A DNA stretch of 64,000 nucleotides. Origin: Sinomonas sp. ASV322. Lineage in GTDB: Bacteria > Actinomycetota > Actinomycetes > Actinomycetales > Micrococcaceae. Position numbers and translations under genes: made by a program. The stretch is taken from the NCBI RefSeq assembly GCF_030908245.1, contig NZ_JAVFJJ010000007.1, positions 1 through 64,000 on the forward strand, written 5' to 3'. Positions 14,739 to 34,085 of this stretch are shown here, one piece after another. Numbering within the stretch: the stretch's first letter is position 1; every line of letters begins with the position of its first letter. The notes beneath the pieces are model-generated. The model had not been told where the DNA came from and searched no databases. It worked only from the letters and a program-made list of their open reading frames with translations.

Positions 14739-16079
14739 CTAGAAGCCGATCGTGGGTGTGGCCCTCACGGCGTTGACAGCCCTATCTGCGATAACTTCGG
14801 CGTCACGTCCGGAATCAAGAATTGTATTCCGATCCGATTCGGAATCGACCATCACCGTCGTCACCGCGAGGCCGTCCGAAGCCGCGGTCGTCAACAGGGC
14901 GTCTACCTGGGCCGAGAAGCAGGAGTCGCTGGACTTCGAGCGGACGTCCATCGCCACCACGTGGTTGTTGGAGACGAAGTTCCCACCCCCCGCCATCAGC
15001 CGGATGATGACCGGTGCCGCGCCTGTCGGCCGGATGCGCTGGGAGTCGATGATCTGAGAGAAATGGTTGCCGACGACGGAGTTGTTGCTGCCGCTGATAC
15101 GGAGAAGTCCGTTGAGGTCGTCCAGCCCGTTGTCGACTTCCAGGAAGGGCGTCCAGGGCTCATGGTCACGCAAGAAGTGATTCGTGGCCACGAGGTTCTC
15201 CGAGCTATTCGCCGCGAGAATCAGCATCCCAGGGTAGAACGAATGCAAACGGTTGTTGGTGACGCTTGAACGCGTGACGCCGTCGAGATGGACGCTGCTC
15301 GCACCCCGGGGGAAGACATTGTTAGCGGTGATCAGGAGCCCGCCATGGTTCTCGGCGTAGATCGAGCGGCCCTTGAAGCCTGCGCCGACCAAGTTGTCGG
15401 TGATCTTTGATGCCTGTCCCCATCCGCGCAGCTCAACGCAGCTTCCACATTCGGCGATGAAGTTGTCGTGAACGGAAAGCGCGTCCGCGTGGTAGGCAGT
15501 GAGAGCGTTCTCAAGGTAGACGAACCCCATGCCGGTTACCCGGAATGAGTCATTGGCGCTCGCGACGTAGATGCCGGTCTTGCCGTTGACGTAAGTGTTC
15601 TCGGGATGGAGGCCCGAGCCATCCGAGTTGAAGTGCAACCCGTCGATGCAGAAGTTGGAGAACTCGACCGAGCTGATGCGCGGACTCCCGCTTCGTTCAA
15701 CGTAGAAGGCGGCTCCCTCGGATTCCTCCCCGTCTCCGCTGAGGGGAATGTCGACGAGAATGCGACTCCCTCCGGGCCACAGCTCATGCAAGTCGGGCCA
15801 TTCGTCGTCGGGAACATTGAACCGGATGCTCGACGACGTAAAGCCGTGCCCCGAGCCGTGGATCCTGAAGAAGCTGACGTCGATCACCACCTGCGTACGA
15901 AGGGGGTAGTCCCCGGGCGGGATGTAGATCACCGCGCCCGGCTTTCCGCCATGGTTCGCATCGCTGCCGGTCTGCCGGTCCTTGATGTCGGCGATGATGC
16001 TGTTGATGACTTCACCGACGTCCTCAGACGGATTGCCAACGGGCCACGCAGTGACGTCGTAGTAGTTGTTGCTTGACAT
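14739..16079 (-). CDS. GH91 protein, probable difructose-anhydride III hydrolase
   Basis: A 446-residue right-handed beta-helix protein clearly related to the inulin fructotransferase further along the window (shared PGAVIYIPPG, VVIDVSF, GSGHGF, GMGFVYLE, NFIAECG, SIYAEN). It has no signal peptide, so it should act in the cytoplasm. The length fits DFA III hydrolase, which opens imported difructose anhydride III to inulobiose. Asp205 and Glu216 (HDNFIAECGSCVEL) match, by spacing and as I recall, the catalytic Asp/Glu pair of the Arthrobacter hydrolase. The fructotransferase has Asn instead of the Asp. It is the last gene of the importer-LacI-GH32-GH91 operon. A DFA I-forming lyase is a less likely alternative. 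Confidence 0.8.
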   Translation of the reverse strand: MSSNNYYDVTAWPVGNPSEDVGEVINSIIADIKDRQTGSDANHGGKPGAVIYIPPGDYPLRTQVVIDVSFFRIHGSGHGFTSSSIRFNVPDDEWPDLHELWPGGSRILVDIPLSGDGEESEGAAFYVERSGSPRISSVEFSNFCIDGLHFNSDGSGLHPENTYVNGKTGIYVASANDSFRVTGMGFVYLENALTAYHADALSVHDNFIAECGSCVELRGWGQASKITDNLVGAGFKGRSIYAENHGGLLITANNVFPRGASSVHLDGVTRSSVTNNRLHSFYPGMLILAANSSENLVATNHFLRDHEPWTPFLEVDNGLDDLNGLLRISGSNNSVVGNHFSQIIDSQRIRPTGAAPVIIRLMAGGGNFVSNNHVVAMDVRSKSSDSCFSAQVDALLTTAASDGLAVTTVMVDSESDRNTILDSGRDAEVIADRAVNAVRATPTIGF

Positions 16080-16108
16080 TGGTTGTTCCCTTTGCGATGT
16101 GGCGGAGT

Positions 16109-17452
16109 TCAGCCGAGCGGATAGGCCGTGCCTGCGGCGTCCCGGGCCGCGAGCGTGGCGTCGCCCTCCCGGGGCGCCGGGAACGCCAGAGCGCCGAAGG
16201 AGCCGATGATTTCAACGATGGGTCCGTCGACGACGACTCTCACCGCGCCGCTGCAGGGCATCGACCACCGTCCCAGGTCGGATGTCGCTGTCAGAGTGCC
16301 TCCCTCGGGCCCCCGGGTTCGCTCGAGCCGGAAAATGTTCCGGATCCCCTCGTCGAGGGACAGTCTCCCTCCGTGCGACCACTCGATGTCGAACGCGCCA
16401 CTCACCGAAATCTCGGGCTTCTGAAGGGCAGCGAGCGGCTGGCCGAACCCCCGGCGTCCCAGCAGGCTCAACGGGAGGCGGATCTCCAGCCGGTCTCCGA
16501 CGAGGGCGAGCCGATGCGGCAGGCTGTGCGCTCCGGCCCAGCCTGCGTCAGGGTCGGAGACGTGGCGGAGCCAGTAGATGATCCCCGGATTGCCGTCCTT
16601 GTCGCGGTAGACCGCGCCCGCATAGTAGGAGGGGCCATAGGTGAGCCGCCGCCAGGGCGTCTCTGCCACGAAGCGTCCGCAGACGATGTCACCGAGGGCG
16701 TAGGCCTCGTAGTGGGGCCGGATCGGCTCCCAGACGGAGACGAGCAGCGCCCACTTCTCCCCGACGCGGACGGCCTGAGGGCATTCCCACACCGAGCCGG
16801 TCCACACGCCGTCGGCCTCGCTCGAATGGCGTGAGGCGAACACGCCGTCGTAGCGCCATGCGGAAAGGTCGTCGGAGGCCCACGAATACGCGACCGCGGT
16901 CCCGTCGGGGCGGCCGGACCCCATGATCATGCGCCAGCAGGTGCCGTCGTGGAAGACCAGCGGGTCCCGAAACGCCACCGATTCCTCGCCTTCGGGGAGA
17001 TCGGCGACGACGGGGCCTTTCACCCAGCGCTCCCAGCTGGCCTCGCTCCCGGGCGCGGGGCGCGCCAGCCGCGCCTTGCCGATCTCGGGGGCGTCGTCGT
17101 CGACCGAGGTGTAGAACATGGTGCTCTCGCCGCCGGGCCCGGACGCGATGCTGCCGGACCAGCAGCCGCCGTCGCCCTCTCCCGGTTCGAGGGCTACGGG
17201 CCTGGTCTTCCACGCCAGGAGGTCGTCTGAGGTGGCGTGGCCCCAGCGGCACTGCGGGGCCCAGTCGGTGGCTCCGGGGACGTGCTGGTAGAAGAGGTGG
17301 TATTGGCCGCCGTGGAACGTCAGTCCCAGGGGATCGTTGATCCATCCCGAGGGGGAGGTGAAGTGGAAGGCCGGGCGCGAGAGCTGTTGTCCCGAACCGC
17401 TGCCGTGGTCTACGGCGGCGGGGGTTTCGTCAGTCGCGGAATGTTGTGGCAT
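16109..17452 (-). CDS. Cytoplasmic GH32 beta-fructosidase
   Basis: A 447-residue GH32 enzyme without signal peptide. The beta-propeller motifs are WINDPLG (nucleophile Asp40), FRDP (Asp163) and WECPQ (acid/base Glu223), followed by a C-terminal beta-sandwich. Predicted to split short fructosides, here probably inulobiose released by the neighbouring GH91 hydrolase, into fructose. The ATG (MPQHS...) has GAGAGAG just upstream. It lies 29 bp before the GH91 gene and 84 bp after the LacI gene in the same operon. Confidence 0.92.
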   Translation of the reverse strand: MPQHSATDETPAAVDHGSGSGQQLSRPAFHFTSPSGWINDPLGLTFHGGQYHLFYQHVPGATDWAPQCRWGHATSDDLLAWKTRPVALEPGEGDGGCWSGSIASGPGGESTMFYTSVDDDAPEIGKARLARPAPGSEASWERWVKGPVVADLPEGEESVAFRDPLVFHDGTCWRMIMGSGRPDGTAVAYSWASDDLSAWRYDGVFASRHSSEADGVWTGSVWECPQAVRVGEKWALLVSVWEPIRPHYEAYALGDIVCGRFVAETPWRRLTYGPSYYAGAVYRDKDGNPGIIYWLRHVSDPDAGWAGAHSLPHRLALVGDRLEIRLPLSLLGRRGFGQPLAALQKPEISVSGAFDIEWSHGGRLSLDEGIRNIFRLERTRGPEGGTLTATSDLGRWSMPCSGAVRVVVDGPIVEIIGSFGALAFPAPREGDATLAARDAAGTAYPLG

Positions 17453-17536
17453 GAAAGTCTCTCTCGTGAATCGTTTTGTTCGCGGCGAGGCTAGGCACTC
17501 CGCAGGGCAGAGCACCGCGGGTCACGGGCCTTCGGA

Positions 17537-18592
17537 TCAGGTGGGGACCGATGGGCGGAACTCCCGAGGGGGCGCGACAGAGTCTCGCGTCACCAAGGGG
17601 CACGGCAGCAACGCTGAGACCCATTCGTGGTCGGATCGGTTCTCCCCGTCAGCAAGCATCTCGACGACGGTCTCGAGCGCCCAGGAGCCCATCTCGTAGT
17701 GGGGCAAGGCCACGGTAGTCAGCGCGGGGAAGAGGTTCGCCGCGATGATCTCCTGGTTGTCGAAGCCCACGATGGAGAGGTCCTCCGGGATTCTCAGGGA
17801 GAGCTCGGCCGCTGCCCGATAGGCGCCCATGGCCATGCGGTCGTTGTAGCAGAAGAGGGCCGTCGGTGCGGAGCGGGCGAGGATCTCTTTGGCGAGCTCG
17901 TAGCCTTCGGGGGTCTCCGACACTGTCTCGCCCACGAGCTTCCCGTCGTAGGGGACGTCGTACTCGGCGAGGACCTGCCGGTATCCGGCCAGGCGCCCGT
18001 GGGTCGCAGGGACGTCGTCATTGTTGTTGAGGAAGGCGATCCGCCGGTGGCCTGCCTCGGCCAGATGGCGGACCGCGGCAACAGCCCCGCCGACCTCATC
18101 GGGCACGACGGCGGGCAGCATGCCAGCGGTGTCTGTCGCGTCGATGAGAACGGCGGGCACCGCGTCGAGGTTCGGGGGGAGGGTGATTCTCCGGTGATAC
18201 ATCGTCGCGTAGAGGATGGCATCGACCTGCCGGTCGAGGAGGGCCTGCACGTCGGCTTGGTGCGCGGCGGCGCCGTCGCCCCGTTCAGCGCTGACGATGA
18301 CTAGGGTGAGGCCGTGGGCGCGTGCGGCCTCCTGGGCCCCGAGGATGATCCTGCCCGCGTGTGGAGTGGTCGCGATCTCCTCGCTCAGGAGCCCGATCAG
18401 CCCAGATCGGCGGGTCCGCAGAGCCTGCGCGACCCTGTTCGGTCCGTAGCCGAGCGATTTCGCGGCCTCGCGGACACGGCTCCTCGTCTCTTCGGCCACG
18501 CGCGTGTGCGGCGTCTCGTTGAGCACATGCGAGACCGTCGTCACGGACACGCCCGCCATCTTGGCGACATCTCGGATGCCCGCAGTCTTCAC
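17537..18592 (-). CDS. LacI-family regulator inside the DFA III operon
   Basis: A 351-residue LacI repressor. The HTH is GIRDVAKMAGVSVTTVSHVL (about 5-24), followed by hinge and sugar-binding domain with FLNNNDDVPATHGRLAGY and IVGFDNQEIIA. It is encoded between the permease and GH32 genes rather than apart, so it probably controls its own operon through the tandem operator-like repeats in front of the binding-protein gene. Confidence 0.93.
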   Translation of the reverse strand: MKTAGIRDVAKMAGVSVTTVSHVLNETPHTRVAEETRSRVREAAKSLGYGPNRVAQALRTRRSGLIGLLSEEIATTPHAGRIILGAQEAARAHGLTLVIVSAERGDGAAAHQADVQALLDRQVDAILYATMYHRRITLPPNLDAVPAVLIDATDTAGMLPAVVPDEVGGAVAAVRHLAEAGHRRIAFLNNNDDVPATHGRLAGYRQVLAEYDVPYDGKLVGETVSETPEGYELAKEILARSAPTALFCYNDRMAMGAYRAAAELSLRIPEDLSIVGFDNQEIIAANLFPALTTVALPHYEMGSWALETVVEMLADGENRSDHEWVSALLPCPLVTRDSVAPPREFRPSVPT

Positions 18593-18655
18593 GCGGATCC
18601 TTCCCCCGAGTTTCTCATCAGATCACATCCTTTCAGGGGACCGGTGTGGCGGGCG

Positions 18656-19495
18656 TCAGCCCTTGACCGCGCCGAGGGTCAGCCCAGCGACGATGTGTCG
18701 CTGGAGGAGCAGGGTCAGGAGGATCACCGGGACGGAGTAGACGACCGCAAGAGCGGTCATCGAGCCCCAATCGAGGCCGAACTGGGTCTGGAAATTGGCG
18801 ATGACCACGGGCGTCGTCTGAGCCCGAACCGCTGTCAGGAGCAGGGCGAAGAGGAACTCGTTCCACGAGGCGAGGAAGGCGAAGATCGCCGTGACGGCCA
18901 CCCCTCCGGACGTGACGGGGATGACCACCCGCCACAGCGCGCCGAGCCGGGAGCACCCGTCGATCTTGGCCGCCTCCTCGAGCTCGGAGGGTACGGCTTC
19001 GAAGAAGCTGGACATGAGCCAGATCGACAGCGGCAGGGAGATCGTGGTGTGTGCGACGGCCAGGGCGATCGAGGTGTCGGAGAGGCCGAGATTCCGGAAG
19101 ATGGAGAGCATCGGCACGCCGACGACGATCGGGGGCACCATCCGGGTCACGAGTGCCGCGACGATGAAGAACCGTCCGAGCCTTGTGCGGAACCGGGTCA
19201 CTGCGTACGCAGCGGGCAGGCCTAACGTGAGCGAGATCGCGGTGCTGAGCGTCGCCGTCACGATGCTGTTGACGAACGAGGCGGTCACGCCGCTGCGCGA
19301 GAGCGCGGAGACGTAGTTTGCGACCGTCCATTCGCTGGGCAGGAGTCGCGGGGGCACGGCGATGGTCTCTATGGGTGCCTTGAACGAAGTCAGGAGCATG
19401 TACACGAACGGGAAGCCGTAGAGCACCACGACTGCAGCGAGGATGATCCACAGAATCGTCTTCGAGCTCAGCTTGCGGACCTCGAGCCCGTTCAT
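18656..19495 (-). CDS. ABC sugar permease 2 (MalG type)
   Basis: A 279-residue permease with about six membrane segments. The EAA loop is EEAAKIDGCSRLGALWRVVI, and the usual C-terminal AGLTLGAVKG is present. Its ATG overlaps the stop of the first permease (ATGA). It forms the DFA III importer with the upstream permease and binding protein. The operon has no ATPase gene, as is common where a shared MsiK-type ATPase energises sugar importers. Confidence 0.92.
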   Translation of the reverse strand: MNGLEVRKLSSKTILWIILAAVVVLYGFPFVYMLLTSFKAPIETIAVPPRLLPSEWTVANYVSALSRSGVTASFVNSIVTATLSTAISLTLGLPAAYAVTRFRTRLGRFFIVAALVTRMVPPIVVGVPMLSIFRNLGLSDTSIALAVAHTTISLPLSIWLMSSFFEAVPSELEEAAKIDGCSRLGALWRVVIPVTSGGVAVTAIFAFLASWNEFLFALLLTAVRAQTTPVVIANFQTQFGLDWGSMTALAVVYSVPVILLTLLLQRHIVAGLTLGAVKG

Positions 19496-20448
19496 CGCTT
19501 TTCCTCGCTTCCGGGGCGCCAGATAGACAGGATCGCCGCGACGGCGACGGCGAGCATGGCGATCAGGTAGACAGTGCCCATGGCGCTCGCGAGGCCTGGG
19601 TCGCCGAAGCGTACCATCGTCCGGTAGATCAGCAGCGAGAGGGTCTCGGTGCTCGACTGCGGCCCGCCGTTGGTTTGAATGAGGATGACGTCGAAGGCCC
19701 TGGCGGCATCGATCCCGCGCACGATGAGCGCGACGGCGATGACCGGGCGCAGCAAGGGCAGCAGAATCCGGAACAGAATCGTGGAGTACCGGGCCCCATC
19801 GATGCGGGCCGCCTCGATCAGGTCCCCTGGGATGTTCTGCAGGCCGGCGAACAGGACGAGGGTGATGAACGAGGTGGTGAGCCAGATGTCCGGAATCGCG
19901 ACAGAGAACAGGGCGATGTTCGGGTTCGACAGCCACTGGATATCCGTGCTCGAGTGCAGGACTCCGACTCTCGTGAAGAGCTCGTTGACGATGCCGAAGT
20001 TGTCGATGAGCAGGAACCGCCAGAGCAGGCCCGCCACGATCGGGGCGATCATCAGCGGGTAGAGGAACACCGTCCTGAAGACCCGCGACGCGTTGCCCAA
20101 GGCCGAGAACAGCAGCGCCACTGCCAGGCCGAGGACGAACTCGAGGGTCACGACGATGACGGCGTACAGCACGGTGCGCCACGCGGCATCGATGAAGTCC
20201 GCGTCCTGGAAGAGCCTGACGTAGTTCCCGAAGCCGACGAATTCGCGTGGGCCTCCGGCGATAGGGGCGATCTTGAAGAATCCATCGATGACGAACTGCA
20301 GGAGCGGCCAGCCGATGAAGACCGCCAGGAACGCCCCTGCGGGCAGCATCAGGAGTGCCGCGAACCGGCGGTCGGTCAGGCGGGTCCGGGATGTGCTTCC
20401 AGCGGGCCGGCGCGGGTGGCTGGTGAGGCCACCCGCGCGGTCCACCAC
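19492..20448 (-). CDS. ABC sugar permease 1 (MalF type)
   Basis: A 318-residue permease with a cytoplasmic basic N-terminus, about six membrane segments and the EAA loop EAARIDGARYSTILFRILLP. The GTG start overlaps the stop codon of the binding-protein gene, and a second GTG follows directly. Paired with the downstream MalG-type permease. Confidence 0.92.
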   Translation of the reverse strand: MVDRAGGLTSHPRRPAGSTSRTRLTDRRFAALLMLPAGAFLAVFIGWPLLQFVIDGFFKIAPIAGGPREFVGFGNYVRLFQDADFIDAAWRTVLYAVIVVTLEFVLGLAVALLFSALGNASRVFRTVFLYPLMIAPIVAGLLWRFLLIDNFGIVNELFTRVGVLHSSTDIQWLSNPNIALFSVAIPDIWLTTSFITLVLFAGLQNIPGDLIEAARIDGARYSTILFRILLPLLRPVIAVALIVRGIDAARAFDVILIQTNGGPQSSTETLSLLIYRTMVRFGDPGLASAMGTVYLIAMLAVAVAAILSIWRPGSEEKR

Positions 20449-21719
20449 TACTTGACTAGCGATTGGACCTGCTCCTTCGCAGCGTTCAGCAGGGCCTGGT
20501 CATCGGCCCCCGGCTGAAGCGACTTCTGGATCATCGGGACGAGCACCTTGTCCACGATCTGCTGCCACTTGGGCGTTGCCGGCCGCGGAATGGTGGCCGA
20601 GGCGTTGAGCGTGTCGATCAGCGGCTTGTAGTTCTCATAGCCGGCCTGGTTTTCGTACTTGGCGAGAGCGGACTTCCGCGCCACGAGGCCAAGGGTCGTC
20701 TGGGCGGACAGCTCGTTGTGGTCGTAGGCGAACTTCAGGAAGTCGTTCGCGGCCTGCTGTTGCTGGCCGGCTTTGGGCACCGAGAGGTACCACGCACCGG
20801 GGACGCCGGCGACGCCGCCAGGGCCAGCGATCATCTCGGCGACGCCGACTTTGCCGTTCACTGGAGCATCCTTGGGGATCGACCGGTATTCGTGCGCCCA
20901 GAAGAGCGACATGGCGGTCTTGCCCTGGTTGAACAGGTTCTGGGCTGCCGCCCAGTCGACCTGCGCACCGCCGGGAGGTGCGTACTTGGCCAGGCTGTCG
21001 TCGAACTGGAGAGCCTTGAGGCTGTTCGCGTTCCCGAGCGAGACGCTGGACCCGTCGGGGCTGACGACCATGGTCTTTTCCCCGGTCTGGGAGAGCATCG
21101 CGAGCCATTCGGTCTCGACGGCGCCTTTCACGTCCGTGCCGAACATGCCGTCCTTGGTGAAGAACGCGGCCGCGTCCAAGTACTGCTGCCACGTTGTGGG
21201 CGGCTTGAGGTCGTACCCGTACTTCGCTTTGAAGGCGGTCTGGTTGGCCGGATCGTTGAAGAGGTCTTTGCGGTAGTACAGGATTTCCGAGTTGGTCCAC
21301 ACCGGCATGCCGATGTATTTGCCCCCTACGTTGGCCTCATTCACGAGAGCCGGGAACAGGTCCTTCTTCACATCGTCCGTGAACAGGCTGTCCAGCGGGG
21401 CGACGGCGTCCTTGAACGCGGGCAGCCAGACGGCGTCCAACGCGGCGACGTCGAAGGAGACACTGCCAGAGGTGAACTCGCTGTTGAGCCTGTTGTACAG
21501 GCCGTCGTATGGCAGCTCGACGAAGGAGACCTTCGTGCCCGTTGCTTTGGTGAACTCGTCCGCGATCGGCTGCAGCTCGGCGTGGCCGCCGGCCTCCACG
21601 AGCACGGTGATGGTCTTCCCCGTGGCCGACGACGTGCTGCCGCCGACGCCGCAGCCGCTCATGGCCAACGCGGCAGCCGTGGCGACCGATGCGGCCACGG
21701 CGATTTTCTTGCGAAGCAT
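20448..21719 (-). CDS. ABC sugar-binding lipoprotein, probable DFA III/fructoside receptor
   Basis: A 423-residue extracellular solute-binding protein (family 1). A lipoprotein signal ends at ALAMSGCG (Cys23). The body has the two-lobe SBP pattern (ITVLVEAGGHAELQPIADEF at its start). It is the first gene of the operon that continues with two permeases, LacI, GH32 and GH91, so the cargo is probably difructose anhydride III or a short inulo-oligosaccharide. This ligand is inferred from context only. Confidence 0.9.
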   Translation of the reverse strand: MLRKKIAVAASVATAAALAMSGCGVGGSTSSATGKTITVLVEAGGHAELQPIADEFTKATGTKVSFVELPYDGLYNRLNSEFTSGSVSFDVAALDAVWLPAFKDAVAPLDSLFTDDVKKDLFPALVNEANVGGKYIGMPVWTNSEILYYRKDLFNDPANQTAFKAKYGYDLKPPTTWQQYLDAAAFFTKDGMFGTDVKGAVETEWLAMLSQTGEKTMVVSPDGSSVSLGNANSLKALQFDDSLAKYAPPGGAQVDWAAAQNLFNQGKTAMSLFWAHEYRSIPKDAPVNGKVGVAEMIAGPGGVAGVPGAWYLSVPKAGQQQQAANDFLKFAYDHNELSAQTTLGLVARKSALAKYENQAGYENYKPLIDTLNASATIPRPATPKWQQIVDKVLVPMIQKSLQPGADDQALLNAAKEQVQSLVK

Positions 21720-21745
21720 CCTTACTCCGAATCTTTCGTGTCCAG

Positions 21746-21894: not shown

Positions 21895-22070
21895 GTGCCA
21901 AACAGGAGCCAAAATTCCGGATCTGCAGCCAAACATTTTGGCTTCCCGACAGTTCTCGGAGGGCTTGGCCGCGACTCTGGGAGTGGGCCAGTCCCGCCCG
22001 CGGGAGAGCTTTGCTGCTCGACCGTGGGCCACGTTTCAGCGTGGTTGGCGTTCTTCGGCTAGTCCAAGTG

Positions 22071-22153
22071 TCGAAACGTTTACGGCCATAATTCTCGCGG
22101 GAACCATTGACATGAACAAAGGGTGACAGTAGCTTTTCGTCGAAACGTTTGCG
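22071..22153 (+). promoter_or_regulatory. Promoter and two operators for the fructotransferase operon
   Basis: TTGACA (22107-22112), a 17-bp spacer and TAGCTT (22130-22135) form a strong promoter. TCGAAACGTTTACG lies upstream (22071-22084), and TCGAAACGTTTGCG covers the expected start point (22140-22153). The two sites are 69 bp apart, an arrangement that could loop. The same 13-mer core recurs before the GH172 gene. Confidence 0.72.
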
Positions 22154-22280: not shown

Positions 22281-22475
22281 TTGAATCCTGCGAAGCGACC
22301 TGTCGCCCGGCGCAGCATCCTGCTCGGGATGGTCGCGAGTCTCGTGTCCTTCGGCGCCGTACAGCAGGCGCCTGCGCTCGCCCAGACGCCGCCCGCACCG
22401 GCGGTTCCCGACGCCGGGCACCCGGTTCAGCACGCGGACCATCCGCCGTACCACGCGATCGTCGGCGTCCTCTGA
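22281..22475 (+). CDS. Tat signal peptide ORF with short His-rich tail
   Basis: A 64-residue ORF starting at TTG, with the strong ribosome-binding site GAGAGGAGAG about 6 nt upstream. PVARRSILLG is a twin-arginine-like motif, followed by a hydrophobic core and a predicted cut after APALA. Only about 30 residues would be exported, with His in GHPVQHADHPPYHA. The stop comes 46 bp before the fructotransferase ATG, and the frames differ by +1. It may be a leader separated from the enzyme by mutation, or a genuine small exported protein. I recognise no family. Confidence 0.6.
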   Translation: MNPAKRPVARRSILLGMVASLVSFGAVQQAPALAQTPPAPAVPDAGHPVQHADHPPYHAIVGVL

Positions 22476-26324: not shown

Positions 26325-26906
26325 TCAGAGGAAAGAGCGGGCGAGCGTCGCGAGCCCGACGGCGATGTAGGCGAGCGGGACCACGCGTCCCGCTCGCCAT
26401 CGCCGCTCGCCGCGCGGCCTCCAGACGGCGCGCCCCGCGAAGGACGCGAGAGCGCACCACAGGACGGTCAGGGCGGCAAAGCACGCGACGGCGGCGGCGC
26501 CGTCGGCCGCGTTCAGGTCATGGAAGAGGGGGACGTAGAGGGCCAGATTGTCCCCGCCGTTGGCGACGGTGAAGGCGATGACGGCGAGAGTCGAGTTGGC
26601 GCTGTGACGGCCGCTCGCGCCGTCGTCGTCCTTCGCGGGACGCAGCAGCGAGGTGAGCCCGATGACTATGGGAACGAGGGCGAGCCACCGGACCCACGAC
26701 GACGGCGCACTCGCCACAGCGCGCGCCGCCAGGATCGCCGCTGCCGTAAGCACGCCCATGCCGACGAGCTGGCCGGCCCAAATCCTGAGGGTATTCCGGC
26801 CGCCCGCCGCCCGATCGACGGCGAAGAAAGCCGTCAGCCCCACGAAATCATCGAGGTTCGTTGCCGCAAACGTGCTTGCCGCGACGGCGAGAATTCCGAT
26901 GTCCAT
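26325..26906 (-). CDS. CadD-like membrane protein
   Basis: A 193-residue protein with about five to six membrane segments and the two conserved signatures of the cadmium-resistance transporter family: ATNLDDF near residue 15 and TVANGGDN in the middle. Family members export divalent metal ions. It follows the second sugar permease by 27 bp on the same strand, so it may be co-transcribed with a sugar importer, an odd partner. Its stop lies 5 bp from the stop of the convergent GH32 gene. Confidence 0.85.
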   Translation of the reverse strand: MDIGILAVAASTFAATNLDDFVGLTAFFAVDRAAGGRNTLRIWAGQLVGMGVLTAAAILAARAVASAPSSWVRWLALVPIVIGLTSLLRPAKDDDGASGRHSANSTLAVIAFTVANGGDNLALYVPLFHDLNAADGAAAVACFAALTVLWCALASFAGRAVWRPRGERRWRAGRVVPLAYIAVGLATLARSFL

Positions 26907-26933: not shown

Positions 26934-27848
26934 TTAGCCCTTCACCGCGCCGACCGTCATGCCGGCGATGACCTGCTTCTGGAACACGGCGTAGATGACG
27001 AGCTGCGGCAGGAGCACGAGGGTGGCCGCGGCCATCATTCCACCGTAGTCCACCGTGTATTGGCCCTGGAACCGCGAGACGGCGAGCGAAACCGTCACCA
27101 TATCCGGGTTGTTGATGAGGATGGACGCGAAGGGGAATTCGTTGAAGACGTAGACCACATTGAAGATGAGGATGGTGGCGATCACCGGCCGCATGAGTGG
27201 AAGGACCACCGTCCAGCACAATCGCGCCAACCCGGCTCCGTCAATGATGGCAGCCTCCTCGAGCTCGGTCGGGAATTCCCGGAGGAAGCCCGTCAGGAGC
27301 AGCGTGTTGAAGGGAATCGACACGGCAATATAGGGGAGGATCAGCGCTGCATAAGTGCCGAACACGCCGAATGCCAGATCGAGCCGGTAGACCGGGAACA
27401 GGAGAATGTAGACCGGCACCGCGAGGCCCGCGAGGAGATAGAAGCGAAGGCTCGACTGGACCTTTCGGCGGCGGAAGGTCATACGCGTGAGCGCGAAAGC
27501 GGACATGAACGAGACGGCCGTTCCGATGGTGACCGAGACGATCGCAATGAGCATCGTGTTCCCATACATCCGCAGCAGCGGGAGTGAGCCGATGACCTTG
27601 ACGTAATTGTCGAGGGTCAGCTGGCTGAGCGAGAACGGGTTCCCGAGGATGTTCCCGCTCGGCTGGAAGGAGAGCAATGCAATCCACAGGATCGGGAGAA
27701 TGATGAGGAACGTCACGAGGTAGGCGACGGCACCCGCAACGAGGGCAAACGGGCGACGGCGGGGCCTCGCCTTCCGGGGCGCAGCCACGGATTCTTCGAA
27801 ACGGGTGGCGCGATAATGCTCGATGCGCTCGGGCATGGCCGTTCTCAT
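26934..27848 (-). CDS. ABC sugar permease (MalG type), second importer
   Basis: A 304-residue permease with about six membrane segments, a long basic N-terminal tail, the EAA loop EEAAIIDGAGLARLCWTVVL and C-terminal AGMTVGAVKG. The ATG overlaps the stop of the preceding permease by 4 bp (ATGA). No ATPase gene adjoins. Confidence 0.92.
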   Translation of the reverse strand: MRTAMPERIEHYRATRFEESVAAPRKARPRRRPFALVAGAVAYLVTFLIILPILWIALLSFQPSGNILGNPFSLSQLTLDNYVKVIGSLPLLRMYGNTMLIAIVSVTIGTAVSFMSAFALTRMTFRRRKVQSSLRFYLLAGLAVPVYILLFPVYRLDLAFGVFGTYAALILPYIAVSIPFNTLLLTGFLREFPTELEEAAIIDGAGLARLCWTVVLPLMRPVIATILIFNVVYVFNEFPFASILINNPDMVTVSLAVSRFQGQYTVDYGGMMAAATLVLLPQLVIYAVFQKQVIAGMTVGAVKG

Positions 27849-28714
27849 GACGCCTTCCGCTCTCGGGATAGTGCGAGGTAGGCGATGGAAACGACCGCGC
27901 CCAGCACCGTGATGATGACGGCCAAGGCCATTCCCAAGCCGTACTTCTGGTTCGTGAAAGTGGTGAAGTACATGTAGCTCACGAGGGTTTCCGAGCGGTG
28001 GACCGGCCCGCCGCCCGTGAGCATGTAGACGAGTTCGAAGATCTTGAACACGTTGGTGATCATGAGGATTGTGACGATCGCGAACGTCTCGCGCATCATC
28101 GGAATCGTGACGTAGCGCAATTGCTGGAATCCCGTGGCGCCGTCGAGCTCGCTCGCCTCCATGACGTCGTGGGGAAGCAATTGGCGTCCGGCATAGAAGA
28201 TCGTCATCGCGAATCCGATGCTGCTCCAGATGAAGACGAGGGCCACGGCGTAGGGCGTGAGAGTGTCGCCGCCGATCCACTGAACGGACGGCAGGCCCGC
28301 AAAGCCGAGAAATCGGTTGAGCAGCCCGATCTTCGGATCGAGGATGAAGACCCAGATGAGTCCGACGAGGATCGGGGCGATGATTGCTGGCCCGAAGACG
28401 AGGGCGCGAAGCAGGCCCGCGCCGGCCACCTTGCGGCGGAGCAGGAGCGCGAGGGCGAACGATCCGGGGACGAGGACCACGACGCCGACCACGAGGATGA
28501 TGAGCGTGTTCTGCAGCGCTCGCCAGAAGAATGGATCCTGGCCGAGCGCACCGTAATTGTCGAATCCGATGAAGTCCGGGTTCCCGAAACCCCGGAATTT
28601 GGTGAAGCTGAATCCGAGCGAATAGGCGACCGGGTAGACGACGAACAGGGTGAAGAGGATCAGCGCCGGGGCGACCATCGCGAGGATCTTCCAGCGGGAG
28701 CTTATCCAGACCAT
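27845..28714 (-). CDS. ABC sugar permease (MalF type), second importer
   Basis: A 289-residue permease with six predicted membrane segments and the EAA-like loop MEASELDGATGFQQLRYVTI. The start is the ATG of MVWISSR. The longer open frame runs back through the upstream hairpin into the binding-protein gene and is not credible. A perfect hairpin separates it from the binding-protein gene. Confidence 0.91.
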   Translation of the reverse strand: MVWISSRWKILAMVAPALILFTLFVVYPVAYSLGFSFTKFRGFGNPDFIGFDNYGALGQDPFFWRALQNTLIILVVGVVVLVPGSFALALLLRRKVAGAGLLRALVFGPAIIAPILVGLIWVFILDPKIGLLNRFLGFAGLPSVQWIGGDTLTPYAVALVFIWSSIGFAMTIFYAGRQLLPHDVMEASELDGATGFQQLRYVTIPMMRETFAIVTILMITNVFKIFELVYMLTGGGPVHRSETLVSYMYFTTFTNQKYGLGMALAVIITVLGAVVSIAYLALSRERKAS

Positions 28715-28743
28715 TGGTGCGGACTTTCTGCTGATGGGGCGGA

Positions 28744-28785
28744 TCACCGGTGGCCCGGCTCTGCGAGGAGCCGGGCCACCGGTGA
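28744..28785 (-). other. Perfect 18-bp intercistronic hairpin
   Basis: TCACCGGTGGCCCGGCTC pairs without mismatch with its complement across a 6-nt loop, between the binding-protein and permease genes. No U-tract follows. Such hairpins commonly let the binding protein be made in excess over the permeases by partial termination or 3'-end protection. Confidence 0.8.
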
Positions 28786-28790
28786 GCGTA

Positions 28791-30101
28791 CTACTTGGAC
28801 TGGATGGCCTGCTGGACCAGGGCCACCGCCTGCTTGGGCGAGAGCTGGTTCTGGATGACGCCGTAGATGCTGTCGTACATCGCGTTGGCAACCGTAGTCG
28901 AGACGAGGAGGTCCGGCTGCGACTCGGGGCTCGTGACGCCTGACTGGGTCGCGGCGTCGAGCGCCGACTTGAGGGCGCTCTGCGCGGTCGCGTCGACCTT
29001 CGGCTTGTAGGTCGTCACGGGGGGCTGGCCGTTGTCGACGAGGAGCTGCTGGGCGGCGTCGCCGTAGTAGAAGGCGAGGAACTTCTTGACGGCGGCGAGC
29101 TTCGCGTTGTCCTTCGAGACCTTCGCGCTCACGACAAGCGGCGCCGACGCGACGTTCATGATGATGTTCTGGCTGCCGACCCCATCCTTGAACTGCGGCC
29201 CGGCCCAGAATCCAACGCTGCCGGCGACGGACGACTTCTGGATCGCGCTCGAGGCCCACACGCCGGCGTCGAGCATGGCCGCCTTGCCGCTCGTGAATTG
29301 GTCGACGGCCTGTTGGTAGGTCTGCGTGGAGACGTTCGAGGCGAAGGCCCCTGCGTCCCGGAGTTCGGCGATGTGCTCGTAGAGGTGCACGAAGTCGGGG
29401 TTGTCGTAGCTCTGCGTCCCCTTGAGGATGCCCTGAACCTTGTCGGCGTAGCCGAAGCGGTCAAGGTCCGTCAGGAAGCTCCACACGCTGAAGGAGGACT
29501 GGTTGGCTCCGTCGGAGATGGTGGTGATCCCCTTCTCCTTGAGCTTCTTGGCAACGGCGAGCAGCTCGTCGAACGTCGTGGGGACCTGGAGGCCGTTGTC
29601 CTGGAGGATCTTCTTGTTGTACCAGAGGCCCGTCAGGAGGCCCTGATAGGGGACGCCGTAGACCGCGTCGCCCGAGGTGAAGTTGGACACCGTGCTCTTG
29701 GGGAACTTGTTGGTGAGGCCGAGATCGCCCAGCACGGGGCCGAGGTTCATGACCTTCCCGCCCTGAAGCATCTCCTCGGCGTTGGACTTGTACACCCAGA
29801 ACACGTCCGGCAGCGTGTCGCTCTGGGCTGCGATCGAGAGCTTCTGCAGATGCTCGGCGACGGCCTCTCCCGTGACCTCCACCTTGATGTTCGGGTTTTC
29901 CTTCTCGAAGGCCTGGACGATGGCCCACGTCGCGGGGTCGGCGGTCTTGACGTCGGGGTTCTGCATGGACAGCGAGATCGTGGTGGGGCCGTCGCTCGGC
30001 GACGAGTTCGAGGACGAGCAGGCCGCGAGGCCTCCCATGGTGGCCGAGGCAGCGATGACTGCTGCAGCGACACGGATGGTGAACGGGAAGGACACTTTCA
30101 T
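28791..30101 (-). CDS. ABC sugar-binding lipoprotein, second importer
   Basis: A 436-residue family 1 solute-binding protein with a lipoprotein signal ending at MGGLAACSS (Cys28). It begins the importer operon and has an excellent promoter and operator directly upstream. Lying between the secreted fructanase and the GH172/GH32 pair under one LacI regulator, it probably takes up a fructo-oligosaccharide or difructose dianhydride. The ligand is inferred. Confidence 0.9.
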   Translation of the reverse strand: MKVSFPFTIRVAAAVIAASATMGGLAACSSSNSSPSDGPTTISLSMQNPDVKTADPATWAIVQAFEKENPNIKVEVTGEAVAEHLQKLSIAAQSDTLPDVFWVYKSNAEEMLQGGKVMNLGPVLGDLGLTNKFPKSTVSNFTSGDAVYGVPYQGLLTGLWYNKKILQDNGLQVPTTFDELLAVAKKLKEKGITTISDGANQSSFSVWSFLTDLDRFGYADKVQGILKGTQSYDNPDFVHLYEHIAELRDAGAFASNVSTQTYQQAVDQFTSGKAAMLDAGVWASSAIQKSSVAGSVGFWAGPQFKDGVGSQNIIMNVASAPLVVSAKVSKDNAKLAAVKKFLAFYYGDAAQQLLVDNGQPPVTTYKPKVDATAQSALKSALDAATQSGVTSPESQPDLLVSTTVANAMYDSIYGVIQNQLSPKQAVALVQQAIQSK

Positions 30102-30195
30102 CTCCTTTGACGAGCGTGAACGGCACCGGCCGCACGGGGGATTGGTGTGTTCTGTCGCCTGCGCGTTGGGGGGATTTTGGCAGGCAACTTCAAAC

Positions 30196-30258
30196 TTTCA
30201 GACAAACGTTTTCGCGAAACGTTTGTCTGAAATTAGAACGCCCACCCCAGGATGTCAA
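30196..30258 (-). promoter_or_regulatory. Promoter and double operator of the second importer operon
   Basis: On the minus strand TTGACA (30253-30258), a 17-bp spacer and TAATTT (30230-30235) form a near-consensus promoter. A long inverted repeat (30196-30232) with arms TTTCAGACAAACGTTTTCG and CGAAACGTTTGTCTGAAA overlaps the -10 and the start point. It contains two AAACGTTT cores, the LacI-type operator found elsewhere in the island. Confidence 0.8.
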
Positions 30259-30270
30259 GCATCGGGTTCG

Positions 30271-31281
30271 TCAGCTGTCCGACCTGCCGTAGCGTTCCGT
30301 GGATTCGCGCCATTCGATGCGCTGCCGCAGGCGCACAGTGCGCGGGCTCGCGTCGGGGGCCTTGAGCCGCTCGACGAGCAGGTTCACGGCCGCAACGCCC
30401 ATGTCGAACGCGGGCTGCCGCACGGTGGTCACCTGTGGGTGGAACAGATCCGAGTTGTCGAAGCCGTCGAAGGCGGCGAAGGCGACGTCGCCCGGTGTCG
30501 ACCGCCCGACCCGCCCAAGGGCCTGCAGGCTCAGCACCGCAAGGGGGGTGCTGCAGGCGACGACGGCGGTCGGCTCGCCGGACTTCATCACCCCTTCGAG
30601 CTCGTCAGCGACGGCCTGTGTGTCCTTTCCGGTGATGATCGCCTGATCGGCAAGCGAGAGGCGCGCGTCGAAGGCTGCGTCCGTGAAGCCGTCCATGCGC
30701 TCGCGCAACGTCGGTACGCGTGTGTCTCCGGCCACGAGCGCGAAGCGTGTGTGCCCCGACCCGATCAGGTGCGCGACGAGCTGGCGCATCGTCTCGCGGT
30801 TGTCGGCGCCCACCTGATCGAAGGGGAGTTCGGGGAAGATGCGGTCCAAGAGGATCGTGGGCGGCTTCTCGAGTTCGAGGGATTGGAGCAGGATCGGGTC
30901 CGACTGGGCAGCCCGCGCCAGGATGAGGCCGTCGACGCGCCGATTGAGCAGGGTCTGGACAGCCTTCTTCTCACGGTCCGCATCCTCGGCCGAGTTGGCC
31001 AGGACGAGCGTCAGCCCGTTCTCGACGGCGGCATGCTCAACTCCGTGGACCATCCCGGCGAACGCCGGCTCGCCGGCGTCCGAGACGACGAGGCCGATGC
31101 TGTCGGTGCGCGAGCGGCGGAGCGCCCGGGCGAGGGCGTCCTGGCGGTAGCCCGTGGCCTCGATGGCCGCGAGGACGCGCTGCCGCGTCTCGGGTTCCAC
31201 ATGTCTCGTCCCGTTCAGGACGTGGGAGACCGTCGAAACGGAAACCTTCGCCCGCCGTGCGACTTCGACCATCGTCGCCAT
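30271..31281 (-). CDS. LacI-family regulator of the fructan island
   Basis: A 336-residue LacI repressor with N-terminal HTH (MVEVARRAKVSVSTVSHVL), hinge and sugar-binding domain. GATGAGGTGAGC precedes the ATG. It stands between the importer operon and the divergent GH172-GH32 operon. Operator-like sites with core AAACGTTT lie in front of both, in front of the fructotransferase, and a related AACGTTT site before its own gene. It is the best candidate for island-wide control. Confidence 0.93.
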   Translation of the reverse strand: MATMVEVARRAKVSVSTVSHVLNGTRHVEPETRQRVLAAIEATGYRQDALARALRRSRTDSIGLVVSDAGEPAFAGMVHGVEHAAVENGLTLVLANSAEDADREKKAVQTLLNRRVDGLILARAAQSDPILLQSLELEKPPTILLDRIFPELPFDQVGADNRETMRQLVAHLIGSGHTRFALVAGDTRVPTLRERMDGFTDAAFDARLSLADQAIITGKDTQAVADELEGVMKSGEPTAVVACSTPLAVLSLQALGRVGRSTPGDVAFAAFDGFDNSDLFHPQVTTVRQPAFDMGVAAVNLLVERLKAPDASPRTVRLRQRIEWRESTERYGRSDS

Positions 31282-31302
31282 TGCTCACCTCATCGTGTCG
31301 TG

Positions 31303-31317
31303 GCGCAACGTTTGCGC
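31303..31317 (-). promoter_or_regulatory. Operator-like palindrome upstream of the LacI gene
   Basis: GCGCAACGTTTGCGC, a near-palindrome around AACGTT, lies 22 bp before the LacI start codon. It suggests autoregulation. I found no convincing -35/-10 pair with it. Confidence 0.5.
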
Positions 31318-31379
31318 ACGTGTCAGAAGTACCCTACATCCCCGCAGAGCCAGTGCAGCAAAGGGATTTCGCGCGACGC

Positions 31380-31432
31380 TTGCGTTCGGGAGGACATTCA
31401 ACCTACGATCCAGTTCAAGCAAACGTTTCGAT
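31380..31432 (+). promoter_or_regulatory. Promoter and operator of the GH172-GH32 operon
   Basis: TTGCGT, an 18-bp spacer and TACGAT (31404-31409) form a moderate promoter. GCAAACGTTTCGAT (31419-31432) covers the predicted start point. It is the reverse complement of the operator at the fructotransferase promoter over 13 bases. Confidence 0.65.
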
Positions 31433-31485
31433 GACTCTGACGGCCTTGTCGACGGAGCCATCGCGAGCAAGGTGGAAGGACAACG

Positions 31486-32841
31486 GTGACCACACATCAC
31501 ACGCCCGCAGGGATGCTGGGCGATCTCACGAGGGCGCGCCGTGCACGGACCGCGCGAGCCTCGAGCTTCGACCAGACCGGGCGGAACACCGACAACTGGA
31601 TCGTCATGCCGGGCGAAGAGCGCACGCTCGCCGACATTGAGGGCCCTGGCTACATCACGCACATCTGGATGACGCAGTCGTGCCGCATCCAGCCGGGCCC
31701 CGGCCAGATCGATCCGTACGTGGTGGGCGTCCCGATGCTCGAGATCCACAACGCGCTCGGCGTGAGCTGGGAAGTCGTGGACCCCGACTACTACCGCAAG
31801 GTCGTCCTCAAGATGTACTGGGACGATCAGGAGACGCCGAGCGTTGTGGCGCCCCTCGGCGACTTCTTCGGCCTCATGAATTCCCTCTCGGGCTCTTACG
31901 ATTCGCTGCCGCTCTCCGTCTCAGCCAAGGAGCCAGAGCTCCACACCTTCGGCGGATCGGCAGCCTTCAACAGCTACTTCCGGATGCCCTTCGGCAAGCG
32001 GGCCAGGATCGTCGTCGAGAACCAGAACGACATCCCGTACCTCCAGTACTTCTACATCGACTACGAGCTCGTCGAAGAGCCCCTCCCCGAGGACGCCCTG
32101 TATTTCCACGCCCACTGGCGCCGCGCGCTGCCCAACCAGGGTTGGGGGCCGGATCTGCAGGCCAACAGCATCGAGACGACGGTCCCCAACCTCGACGGCG
32201 CAGACAACTACGTTGCCCTCGAGACGGAGGGCCGCGGCCATTACGTGGGGTGCACCCTCGCCGTCCGCCACTTCCAAGGCTCGTGGTGGGGCGAAGGGGA
32301 CGACATGATCTTCATCGACGACGACACATGGCCCCCGAGCCTTCACGGCACCGGGATGGAGGACTACTTCGGGCACGCGTGGGGCATGCAGCACAATGCC
32401 TACCAGTTCAACGGGACGATGGTGCACGAAGAAGACGTGCCGGGCTTCCACCACAGCTACCGCTTCCACATGGCCGATCCGATCAGGTTCGAGAAGCGCA
32501 TCAAGGTCAGCTTCGAGCATGGGCACGGCAACCACCTTTCCGACGACTGGTCCTCGACGGCGTACTGGTACCAGACCCTTCCGTCCCCGGTCCTCACGAT
32601 CCCCGACGTCGAGGAGCGTCTCCCGCTCCGGCCGATTGACCGCGTGATCCAGGCCCCGCTCCCCGAGCTCAGCGAGGAGCAGCGGCAAGCCCGAGCCGCG
32701 GCGGCCCGGCGGATGGAGGATTTCGTGGCCCGCCGGGACGCCCTTCGCGAGGAGCGGCGCCGACAGGTCGATGAGTGGGAGCGCGGAAACGTCGAGATAG
32801 CCCGCCAGATCCGGGCCCGCTTCGATGGGAAGGCGAGCTGA
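31486..32841 (+). CDS. GH172 (DUF2961) glycosidase, probable alpha-fructofuranosidase / DFA I hydrolase
   Basis: A 451-residue cytoplasmic protein without signal peptide. DUF2961 was made family GH172 after a bifidobacterial member proved to be a difructose dianhydride I synthase/hydrolase. Some actinobacterial relatives are D-arabinofuranosidases. Visible motifs: NTDNWIVMPGEERTLADIEG (about 34-53), WWGEGDDMIFIDDD with Glu270, and GTGMEDYFGHAWG with Glu292. The glutamates match, as I recall, the catalytic pair Glu270/Glu291 of the founding enzyme. A charged helical tail (about 395-451) follows. It overlaps the GH32 gene (TGATG), so DFA I to inulobiose to fructose is the likely route. Confidence 0.88.
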   Translation: MTTHHTPAGMLGDLTRARRARTARASSFDQTGRNTDNWIVMPGEERTLADIEGPGYITHIWMTQSCRIQPGPGQIDPYVVGVPMLEIHNALGVSWEVVDPDYYRKVVLKMYWDDQETPSVVAPLGDFFGLMNSLSGSYDSLPLSVSAKEPELHTFGGSAAFNSYFRMPFGKRARIVVENQNDIPYLQYFYIDYELVEEPLPEDALYFHAHWRRALPNQGWGPDLQANSIETTVPNLDGADNYVALETEGRGHYVGCTLAVRHFQGSWWGEGDDMIFIDDDTWPPSLHGTGMEDYFGHAWGMQHNAYQFNGTMVHEEDVPGFHHSYRFHMADPIRFEKRIKVSFEHGHGNHLSDDWSSTAYWYQTLPSPVLTIPDVEERLPLRPIDRVIQAPLPELSEEQRQARAAAARRMEDFVARRDALREERRRQVDEWERGNVEIARQIRARFDGKAS

Positions 32842-34085
32842 TGCGCCCCGCCTTCCACTTTGCGGCCGAGCGAGGCTGGATCAACGATCCCCACGGCATC
32901 ACCGTCAAGGACGGCGCGTACCACCTCTTCTATCAATACGTCCCCGAGAGCATGGAATGGGCCCCCAACTGCCACTGGGGGCACGCGCGCGGCGCGGACC
33001 TCTTCTCCCTCCGCGGCCTCCCCGTCGCGCTCGCTCCAGGCGAGGGCGACGACGGCGTGTGGACAGGTTCGCTCGTCACCGACGGCGACGGCGGCACCCG
33101 CCTCTTCTACACGTCGACCGCGCAGCCCGACATCGGCATCGGCCGCATCCGAGTCGCGACGCCGAAGGACAGCGAGTGGATCGAGTGGTCCAAGGGCGAC
33201 TTCGTCGCGGACGTGCCGGCGGGCCTCGACATCATTGCGTACCGCGATCCGTTCCTTGTGAAGGAACCAGACGGCTGGCGCATGTTCGTCGGGGCCGGCT
33301 CGTCTGATGGCACCGCCATGGCCTTGAGCTACACGTCGGCCGATCTCGCGGCATGGGACTACGAGGGCGTCGCCCTGAAGCGCTCGACCGAGGAGCGGGA
33401 CCCCGTCTGGCTCGGGGCGCTCTGGGAGTGCCCTCAGATCTTCGAGATCGACGGCCGCCACGTCATGGTGTCCTCAGTCTGGGACGACGACGTGCTGCAC
33501 TACGCCGGCTACGCCATCGGCGACTACGCCGAGGGCCGCTTCGAGCCGACCACGTGGGGAAGGCTCACGTACGGGCCTAGCTACTACGCGCCGTCGTTCT
33601 TCCGCGACGCCGACGGGCGCCCATGCCTGACCTTCTGGATGCGTGGCATCGCGGATCCCGAAGCAGGCTGGGCGAGCGCGCACAGTGTCCCGCATGTCCT
33701 CACCCTCGACGGCGATCGCCTCGTCGCGTCTCCGCACCCGGATCTGGTCAAGTACCGCGGCGCACCGGCCGGGCAGGGCGAGCTTCCTGGCCTCTCCGGG
33801 GACATCGCGTGGTGGCCTGCGCCGGGGGACGCGCTCCGCGTGACGTGCGAAGGGGAGACGGTCTTCGTGCTCAAGGCGGGTTCGGCGGCAATCGGCGCTA
33901 TGACGGCGTCCGAGTCCCTCGAGCTTCCGTTTGGGGGAGGGGAAGTCAGAGTCGTCGTCGATGCACAGGCGATCGAGGTCTCGACGCGCGACGGCGTTCT
34001 CGGCTTCGGCGTCCGGCCCGGAGGGGCCACGTACGCGGTCGAGGCGAGCCACGCCGTCGCCTATCCGCTGTCGCATCCGAGCTGA
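32841..34085 (+). CDS. Cytoplasmic GH32 beta-fructosidase, GH172 partner
   Basis: A 414-residue GH32 enzyme lacking a signal peptide. WINDPHG (Asp16), YRDP (Asp136) and WECPQ (Glu196) are present, with a short C-terminal sandwich. It is a paralogue of the other cytoplasmic GH32 (shared EWAPNCHWGHA / DWAPQCRWGHA, RLTYGPSYYA). The ATG overlaps the GH172 stop, with GGAAGG upstream. It probably splits the inulobiose-type product of GH172. Confidence 0.92.
   Translation: MRPAFHFAAERGWINDPHGITVKDGAYHLFYQYVPESMEWAPNCHWGHARGADLFSLRGLPVALAPGEGDDGVWTGSLVTDGDGGTRLFYTSTAQPDIGIGRIRVATPKDSEWIEWSKGDFVADVPAGLDIIAYRDPFLVKEPDGWRMFVGAGSSDGTAMALSYTSADLAAWDYEGVALKRSTEERDPVWLGALWECPQIFEIDGRHVMVSSVWDDDVLHYAGYAIGDYAEGRFEPTTWGRLTYGPSYYAPSFFRDADGRPCLTFWMRGIADPEAGWASAHSVPHVLTLDGDRLVASPHPDLVKYRGAPAGQGELPGLSGDIAWWPAPGDALRVTCEGETVFVLKAGSAAIGAMTASESLELPFGGGEVRVVVDAQAIEVSTRDGVLGFGVRPGGATYAVEASHAVAYPLSHPS

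Follow-up and report, generated by a model that had tools for sequence, protein, structure and literature searches.

The 64,000-nucleotide stretch of Sinomonas sp. ASV322 that was analysed here (contig NZ_JAVFJJ010000007.1, positions 1 to 64,000; hereafter the window) contains an island at 14739-34085 that is best explained as a composite inulin locus. We consider it quite probable that a small gene in this island, here called the escort, supplies in trans the signal peptide for GH91b, an inulin fructotransferase (IFT) that has none of its own. A Pfam scan of the open reading frames (ORFs) identified two GH91, three GH32 and one GH172 enzymes, two LacI-family regulators and two ABC importers in the island, which belongs to a genome of 4.34 Mb with an assembly that is 97.9% complete. 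The six enzymes, which were recognised by Pfam and by their catalytic motifs, and the two importers, which are represented by two substrate-binding proteins and four permeases (Pfam), had already been listed in an earlier reading of the window (the original prediction); the small ORF at 22281-22475 (+) and the operator-like sites were missing from it.

The escort (22281-22475, +) is separate from the enzyme and encodes 64 residues (MNPAKRPVARRSILLGMVASLVSFGAVQQAPALAQTPPAPAVPDAGHPVQHADHPPYHAIVGVL) that comprise a Tat-type (twin-arginine translocation) signal peptide, a proline-rich linker and the C-terminal tail DHPPYHAIVGVL, the conserved part of which ends HAIVGVL. Its start is a TTG behind GAGAGGAGAG, its frame is another than that of GH91b (22522-23706, +), and no Pfam family matched it above the family's cut-off. 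Tat signals were judged by motifs, and the twin arginine, the hydrophobic stretch and the AxA site are all present in the escort. GH91b starts where the chain of its solved relative 8HSN starts and has no signal peptide; an enzyme that lacks a signal thus stands next to the gene of a partner, as is expected of a hitchhiker pair. In relatives that were fetched early, a peptide of this kind is likewise encoded ahead of GH91.

When one rule was applied to 91 GH91 entries, an escort was found before 49 IFT genes and a fused in-frame Tat-type signal in 21 (20 after deduplication, with L146 dropped as a duplicate of L028), while two IFT genes had neither. None of the 19 difructose anhydride (DFA) III hydrolases (DFA-IIIases) had an escort or a fused signal. 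No gene among the 71 non-duplicate IFTs had both. Of the two exceptions, L024 stands second in a tandem pair, the first copy of which has an escort, and the contig upstream of L029 is just 260 nt long. The fragments L018, L035 and L040-L044, the copy of L019 (L037) and two rows that were not placed (L147 and L150) were excluded from the count; among these, L147 and L018 have an escort and L150 has a fused RR signal. From the genus g9 only fructotransferase-type matches were fetched, and the count therefore holds no DFA-IIIase-type matches from it. Among 29 rows from one genus that were fetched after the rule had been set (L108-L136), 27 had an escort and two (L135 and L136) a fused signal. The upstream limit was 300 nt in all rows, including the DFA-IIIases; a first scan of these 29 rows with a limit of 160 nt gave 19 matches, and the escort lies 165-214 nt away in L118, L119, L121, L124, L126, L129 and L130.

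The finder rule required a tail that ends G[LVM]L. At 20000 random positions in 34 loci, it gave 138 matches on 23 ORFs, all of which lie before a GH91 gene (a truncated one in L018). A rescan without the tail rule covered 75 of the 91 rows, the remainder being 16 fused rows, and each of the 49 escort rows again had an ORF that ended G[LVM]L; overall, the rescan gave an ORF in all 49 escort rows, one of five fused rows, one of 19 DFA-IIIase rows and neither of the two remaining rows. The five ORFs with other endings (L007, L109, L122, L028 and L053) are chance reading frames by eye, except for that of L053, which is a TatA gene. Moreover, when a hidden Markov model (HMM) of 11 escorts was run against 15 genomes with GH91, the five best matches overall all adjoined GH91; the window's escort matched in its own genome with an E-value of 8.4e-19, the model including this row. 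Because a phylum-wide sample was thin (a GH91 match in 3 of 396 genomes), genera and families in which GH91 occurs were sampled instead; matches were obtained in 10 of 197 genomes of the host's own family, 6 of 392 genomes of the G218 genus, 9 of 249 of the G511 family and 102 of 198 of the genus g9. A scan of genome contigs with GH91b as a single protein found no relative, while a two-row alignment found relatives.

In the 49 escorts, position -4 of the tail is always I, V or L and position -8 always H, Y, R or K, both of which lie outside the finder rule, and the very end mostly reads [HYR]xx[IL][IV]G[VLM]L. The AxA site is present in all 49 and the linker is variable. In a 77-row tree, the fused-signal rows form one clade and the escort rows cover the remaining IFT tree; within the actinobacterial fructotransferases that were sampled, the fused signal is confined to that clade and the split form is tree-wide. 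Most simply, the fused state would have arisen once, together with the loss of the escort, and the persistence of the escort across the remaining branches would then count as evidence separate from the either/or pattern. We infer that the escort is the trans signal of an enzyme family that is elsewhere signalled in cis. It also seems likely that such stand-alone Tat signal peptides, each with a signal, a loose linker and a docking tail, make up a family that exports a folded glycoside hydrolase in trans.

In the proposed mechanism, GH91b would fold in the cytoplasm, the escort would bind it through the C-terminal tail, and the twin-arginine signal of the escort would carry the folded complex through the Tat translocase. 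Parts of this translocase are present, as two TatA/B-family genes were found in the window's genome. Outside the cell, the action of GH91b on inulin would yield DFA I, with the secreted GH32 trimming the remainder. The DFA I would be imported and opened to inulobiose by GH172, from which GH32 would yield fructose, and the DFA III module would import and open DFA III that is made by neighbours. The earlier outline, in which inulin is broken down outside the cell and the products are imported and finished in the cytoplasm, fits this scheme, although it overlooked that GH91b has no signal of its own and that a separate gene carries the Tat signal. As for the docking, Q41, R61 and the NTDG loop (106-109) of GH91b are kept in 92-96% of the escort-type enzymes and are changed in the fused-signal enzymes and in the DFA-IIIases; the candidate dock on the enzyme may include these positions. 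Export in trans through Tat would also explain a published puzzle about A. globiformis S14-3: its DFA I-forming enzyme was purified from the culture supernatant, yet the gene has no signal peptide (PMC5448860).

Several observations weigh against this explanation. Two AlphaFold2 runs on natural in-frame escort-GH91 stretches, as monomers only, modelled GH91 well and gave the escort a pLDDT of about 27-38 with no docking, the escort being disordered apart from a short low-confidence helix in the tail; the input was three natural in-frame read-through rows, since MAFFT aligned escort-only rows poorly with full-length GH91. The rhizobial IFT L087 has neither an escort nor a clear signal. The twin arginine and hydrophobic stretch, present in 49 of 49 escorts by construction of the finder, are no independent test because they are part of it. 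The strict TatP motif (as defined in the accessible text of PMC2758597) is present in 37 of the 49; the other 12, including the window's, have RRSIL, one position off. The escort HMM ranked the GH91-adjacent ORF first in just 8 of 15 genomes, with the Tat signals of longer proteins first in the other seven, so that the profile by itself is not enough to tell escorts apart. Because the fused form is one clade, the either/or pattern amounts to one evolutionary change seen in many genomes. Finally, identity is the one line of evidence that points to DFA I as the product of GH91b.

An alternative that would keep the Tat export, and which we regard as unlikely, is that the escort is itself a secreted peptide with a role outside the cell, as a signal, inhibitor or assembly factor, and has the hydrophobic octamer as its active part. 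Exported peptide pheromones are an analogy for an active C-terminal octamer, and the short, conserved hydrophobic tail, the variable linker and the invariable AxA site would suit such a role. However, this would leave unexplained why the enzyme that is paired with an escort has no signal and why the fused clade has no escort. It is somewhat less plausible still that GH91b needs no escort, being released by cell lysis or exported non-classically, or else working in the cytoplasm on oligosaccharides that have been imported. The rhizobial IFT with neither signal nor escort would fit this proposal, but the conserved Tat-type peptide before 49 genes would remain without an explanation, and the S14-3 enzyme was reported from the culture supernatant.

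The fructotransferase had originally been thought to feed the DFA III branch. By its place in the tree, GH91b belongs to the putative DFA I-forming clade and not to the DFA III type: it falls in an 11-row clade with an SH-aLRT of 100, in which the placement of L048 and L023 is less sure because of their long branches. GH91b has the Pfam Beta_helix_2 domain, its match to 8HSN spans 1-394 (E 1.6e-201; 78% identical), and it scored 672 bits against 8HSN compared to 381 bits against 2INU, a fructotransferase of the other type. The titles of 8HSN and 8HUI name a DFA I-forming inulin lyase, and the closest solved relative of GH91b is thus named for the activity of EC 4.2.2.17. That GH91b nevertheless forms DFA III, so that both branches would be complete and fed within the locus, would suit the presence of a DFA-IIIase and its importer. 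This is improbable, as GH91b is only about 50% identical to the DFA III-type rows, and as the other 10 loci of its clade have no DFA-IIIase in the stretches that were fetched, while GH172 at an identity of at least 40% is present in nine of them.

The other enzyme, GH91a (14739-16079, -), was correctly described as a GH91 hydrolase-like protein for DFA III. It matched the DFA-IIIase 5ZKS over its full length (1-446) with an E-value of 3.7e-241 in phmmer, clusters with the DFA-IIIases in the tree and has neither a signal nor an escort; its Pfam Beta_helix_2 score was 30.3 bits, barely above the cut-off of 30 bits. The lid segment that is absent from IFTs is retained. The catalytic motif ADA...AEC is present in both GH91 enzymes, and the catalytic Asp and Glu of GH91a lie 11 residues apart, by which spacing they were mapped to D207/E218, the catalytic residues of AaDFA-IIIase in the accessible part of PMC4640833. 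Whole-genome searches of the 97.9% complete assembly found no GH91 beyond GH91a and GH91b. As no DFA III-forming enzyme was thus seen there, the DFA-IIIase branch looks like the salvage of DFA III made by others. In the genus g9, 48 of the 102 genomes with GH91 have a single match, mostly with E-values near 1e-90, which are typical of DFA-IIIases. These may perhaps be DFA III scavengers that make none themselves.

The escort tail is conserved at the protein level, more than the linker is: in nine escorts of the DFA I clade, pairwise codon differences in the last 10 codons were 73 synonymous to 112 non-synonymous, compared to 50 to 367 in the preceding 13 codons (the same nine, ungapped). Since the spacing between escort and GH91 varies (17-214 nt) and all three frames relative to GH91 are used (24, 13 and 12 rows), the escort and GH91 are two proteins. 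Against this background, it is very improbable that the small ORF is a regulatory leader that tunes the expression of GH91 by its translation and yields a functionless peptide; its position upstream of GH91, no more than 100 nt away in 40 of 49 rows, would suit a leader, but the conservation of the tail as protein and the wide range of the spacing would not. Hardly any credence can be given to the escort and GH91 being one protein by programmed frameshift or stop readthrough, or by a sequencing frameshift in the window, as a general mechanism of this kind was rejected on the varying frames: the two share a frame in 13 of 49 rows, including L007, L021, L022 and L023 with one stop between, but 36 rows use the other two frames, and a purine-rich, ribosome-site-like sequence precedes the GH91 start in the ten loci that were read. 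As a separate observation, in L044 (G875:C13) a broken fructotransferase lies behind an ORF that has the tail PHPSYAPIVGLL but no Tat signal.

Small upstream partners of secreted enzymes are known. In the tyrosinase operon of Streptomyces, MelC2 is reported to leave the cell as a hitchhiker on MelC1 (PMC2758597); as with the escort and GH91, a small upstream gene with a Tat signal is paired with a secreted enzyme that has none, and the pair is conserved (PMC2758597 and PMC5853079, in their accessible parts). In Ni-Fe hydrogenase and formate dehydrogenase, the signal of one subunit likewise serves both (PMC10924467, accessible part). However, the signal bearer in these redox hitchhikers is a functional subunit, whereas the escort seems to consist of hardly anything beyond a signal and a tail; its cargo, moreover, is a glycoside hydrolase. 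MelC1 also activates its enzyme with copper, while the GH91 escort, which consists of a signal, a linker and a tail of 8-12 residues, has little room for a folded domain. To our knowledge, GH91 needs no cofactor. Signals in cis are known within GH91 itself: the DFA III-forming gene of Arthrobacter sp. H65-7 encodes a 32-residue signal peptide (PMC5448860). Enzymes of this type are of the same family as GH91b and are extracellular, and our 20 fused rows, which carry a Tat-type signal in cis, have no escort. No description of the escort idea was found in the open-licence literature, which is weak evidence of absence; as far as that literature goes, the escort would be an undescribed variant of Tat hitchhiking. 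If the proposal is true, Tat hitchhiking extends from redox and copper enzymes to an enzyme that cuts sugars, the partner in this case being reduced almost to a signal and a short tail. The tail could become a small add-on for the secretion of folded proteins, and secretion predictors that treat one gene at a time would be expected to call such enzymes cytoplasmic.

Judged by identities to related loci, the locus joins a putative DFA III salvage module, which resembles those of congeners, to a putative DFA I module that resembles loci of Leifsonia and Streptomyces. The left (DFA III) module consists of the SBP1 importer, LacI1, GH32a and the DFA-IIIase. In L094 (congener G186), GH91a, GH32a, LacI1 and SBP1 have counterparts with identities of 87, 82, 87 and 91%, and in L091 (congener G006) of 87, 83, 85 and 62%. 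The right (DFA I) module comprises the escort, GH91b, the secreted-type GH32, the SBP2 importer, LacI2, GH172 and GH32b; its SBP2, LacI2, GH172 and GH32b are 75, 66, 87 and 62% identical to those of Leifsonia L023, and SBP2 is 52-54% identical to those of the Streptomyces loci, which the right half also resembles.

The claim that both branches lie side by side in the locus was borne out, but not the claim that they form an undescribed unit. Mapping of 34 related loci showed a DFA-IIIase in 21, a GH172 with an identity of at least 40% in 11, and both in one, L028 of Arthrobacter nitrophenolicus; the search for co-occurrence thus showed the combination to be rare and not unique to the window. 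L030 combines a DFA-IIIase with a GH172-like gene of just 32% identity. Of the 11 loci in the DFA I clade, 10 carry GH172 at 40% or more, the exception (L048) being on a contig of 7970 bases, and the window's is the only one in which a DFA-IIIase was seen. Such absences are soft because some loci are cut by contig ends. L028 resembles the island in having a DFA-IIIase, a GH91 IFT, GH172 (81%), GH32 and regulators within 20 kb, but differs in its IFT, which carries the signal fused and is not part of the DFA I clade. Additionally, a DFA I locus of S. davawensis has been proposed, with the IFT BN159_0187, GH172 BN159_0193 and GH32 BN159_0194 (PMC8605356). This three-stage route shares IFT, GH172 and GH32 in one region with the island; the accessible part of that paper mentions neither a DFA-IIIase module nor an escort for it. 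The same part describes the alpha-FFase1 operon of Bifidobacterium dentium, which, like the island, has LacI, GH32, GH172 and an ABC importer, and reports no putative GH91 fructotransferase in the B. dentium genome, in which it differs from the island. The enzymes and both DFA routes are already known (PMC8605356, PMC11538131 and PMC4640833, in their accessible parts). In view of L028 and the S. davawensis proposal, the claim of a new combination of pathways was dropped. The mixed locus appears to be a rare arrangement of known parts, and its pathway would be a modest extension in which one cyclic sugar is made from inulin and the tools to salvage the other are kept.

Two other arrangements were seen. 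The fructotransferases of L025 and L098, which share about 50% identity with GH91b, occur with a GH172 of about 41-42% and no DFA-IIIase in the stretch; this may be a third combination, with a product that is not obvious. In the congener G186 (L018/L094), an escort precedes a truncated fructotransferase of 71 residues that adjoins the DFA-IIIase module, which would suggest that the maker was lost and the salvage kept.

The original prediction treated the island as one regulated locus; it is better read as two regulons, as the modules have different operator-like sites. The palindrome AGCCAAACATTTTGGCT (21927-21943), a candidate operator of the left module, is the sole site in the window at three or fewer mismatches (0.01 expected). 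AAACGTTT occurs five times in the window, always within three intergenic regions of the right module (0.11 expected), which front the escort-IFT operon, SBP2 and GH172. Two TCGAAACGTTT[AG]CG sites (22071 and 22140; 22071-22153) are candidate LacI operators before the escort-IFT operon, two AAACGTTT operator-like cores precede SBP2 (30204-30224) and one lies between LacI2 and GH172 (31421-31428). Similar AAACGTTT sites are also present in L019 and L023. A scan for promoters and terminators gave nothing clear.

The GH172 enzyme (31486-32841, +), a putative DFA I synthase/hydrolase (alpha-fructofuranosidase) with no signal seen, is the only DUF2961 protein in the genome. Its assignment to the DFA I-hydrolase family was upheld: it matched alpha-FFase1 (7V1V) with an E-value of 2.5e-159 and the catalytic Glu pair aligned, the motifs WWGEG and MEDYF holding the acid/base and nucleophile that correspond to E270 and E291 of alpha-FFase1. 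Its stop overlaps the start of the beta-fructofuranosidase GH32b (32841-34085, +; GH32N, scanned from 32775), an ATG at 32841 behind GGGAAGGCGAGCTG. The catalytic motifs W[MI]NDP, RDP and WECP are present in all three GH32 enzymes of the island. The beta-fructofuranosidase GH32a (16109-17515, -; Pfam GH32N; WINDP, FRDP and WECP), the true start of which is probably a later codon, has counterparts in L091 and L094 (82-83% identical). The best PDB match of the exo-inulinase-like GH32 (23801-26320, +; GH32N and GH32C) is the exo-inulinase 8I12; by eye, the enzyme has an N-terminal Sec-like signal of its own. Its catalytic domain contains an insert of about 310 residues (289-606) that consists of two similar segments ('GTLPNQxPVSG...GDASxGxxxSPxFTI...VGGGNHP'), possibly a duplicated module.

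The left importer comprises the substrate-binding protein SBP1 (20448-21719, -; SBP_bac_1; 62% identical in L091 and 91% in L094) and the permeases 1a (19492-20448, -; BPD_transp_1) and 1b (18656-19495, -; BPD_transp_1, E 1.8e-19; start ATG at 19495). The right one comprises SBP2 (28791-30101, -; SBP_bac_1), permease 2a (27845-28714, -, start inferred; BPD_transp_1 on 27845-28891) and permease 2b (26934-27848, -), for which BPD_transp_1 was found on the longer frame 26934-28280 and the start was taken from an ATG overlap. Pfam found no ATPase among the island ORFs scanned, and two MalK-type ATPases are encoded elsewhere in the host genome. The regulators are LacI1 (17537-18592, -; Pfam LacI and Peripla_BP_3; 85-87% identical in congeners) of the DFA III module and LacI2 (30271-31281, -; Pfam; 66% in L023) of the DFA I module. 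An unrelated CadD gene (26325-26906; Pfam) interrupts the island.

Among the related loci, the TatA gene of the L053 case (PF02416, E 2.4e-15) lies in G1194 inside a fructotransferase/DFA-IIIase operon (L099, 10159-10386, -), on the same strand as and between the escort-IFT pair and the DFA-IIIase, immediately after the fructotransferase; this arrangement speaks for Tat export. It was the sole TatA-like ORF that a pattern search found in 38 stretches; G1194 has three more TatA/B-family matches elsewhere, one of which is below the cut-off. On an Agrobacterium plasmid (L087, 4520-7182), the DFA-IIIase and fructotransferase genes are 5 bases apart and the ABC importer has its own ATPase. Beyond the island, at 35495-38933, the window encodes a secreted-type protein with a Pro-kumamolisin domain and a class II fructose-bisphosphate aldolase.

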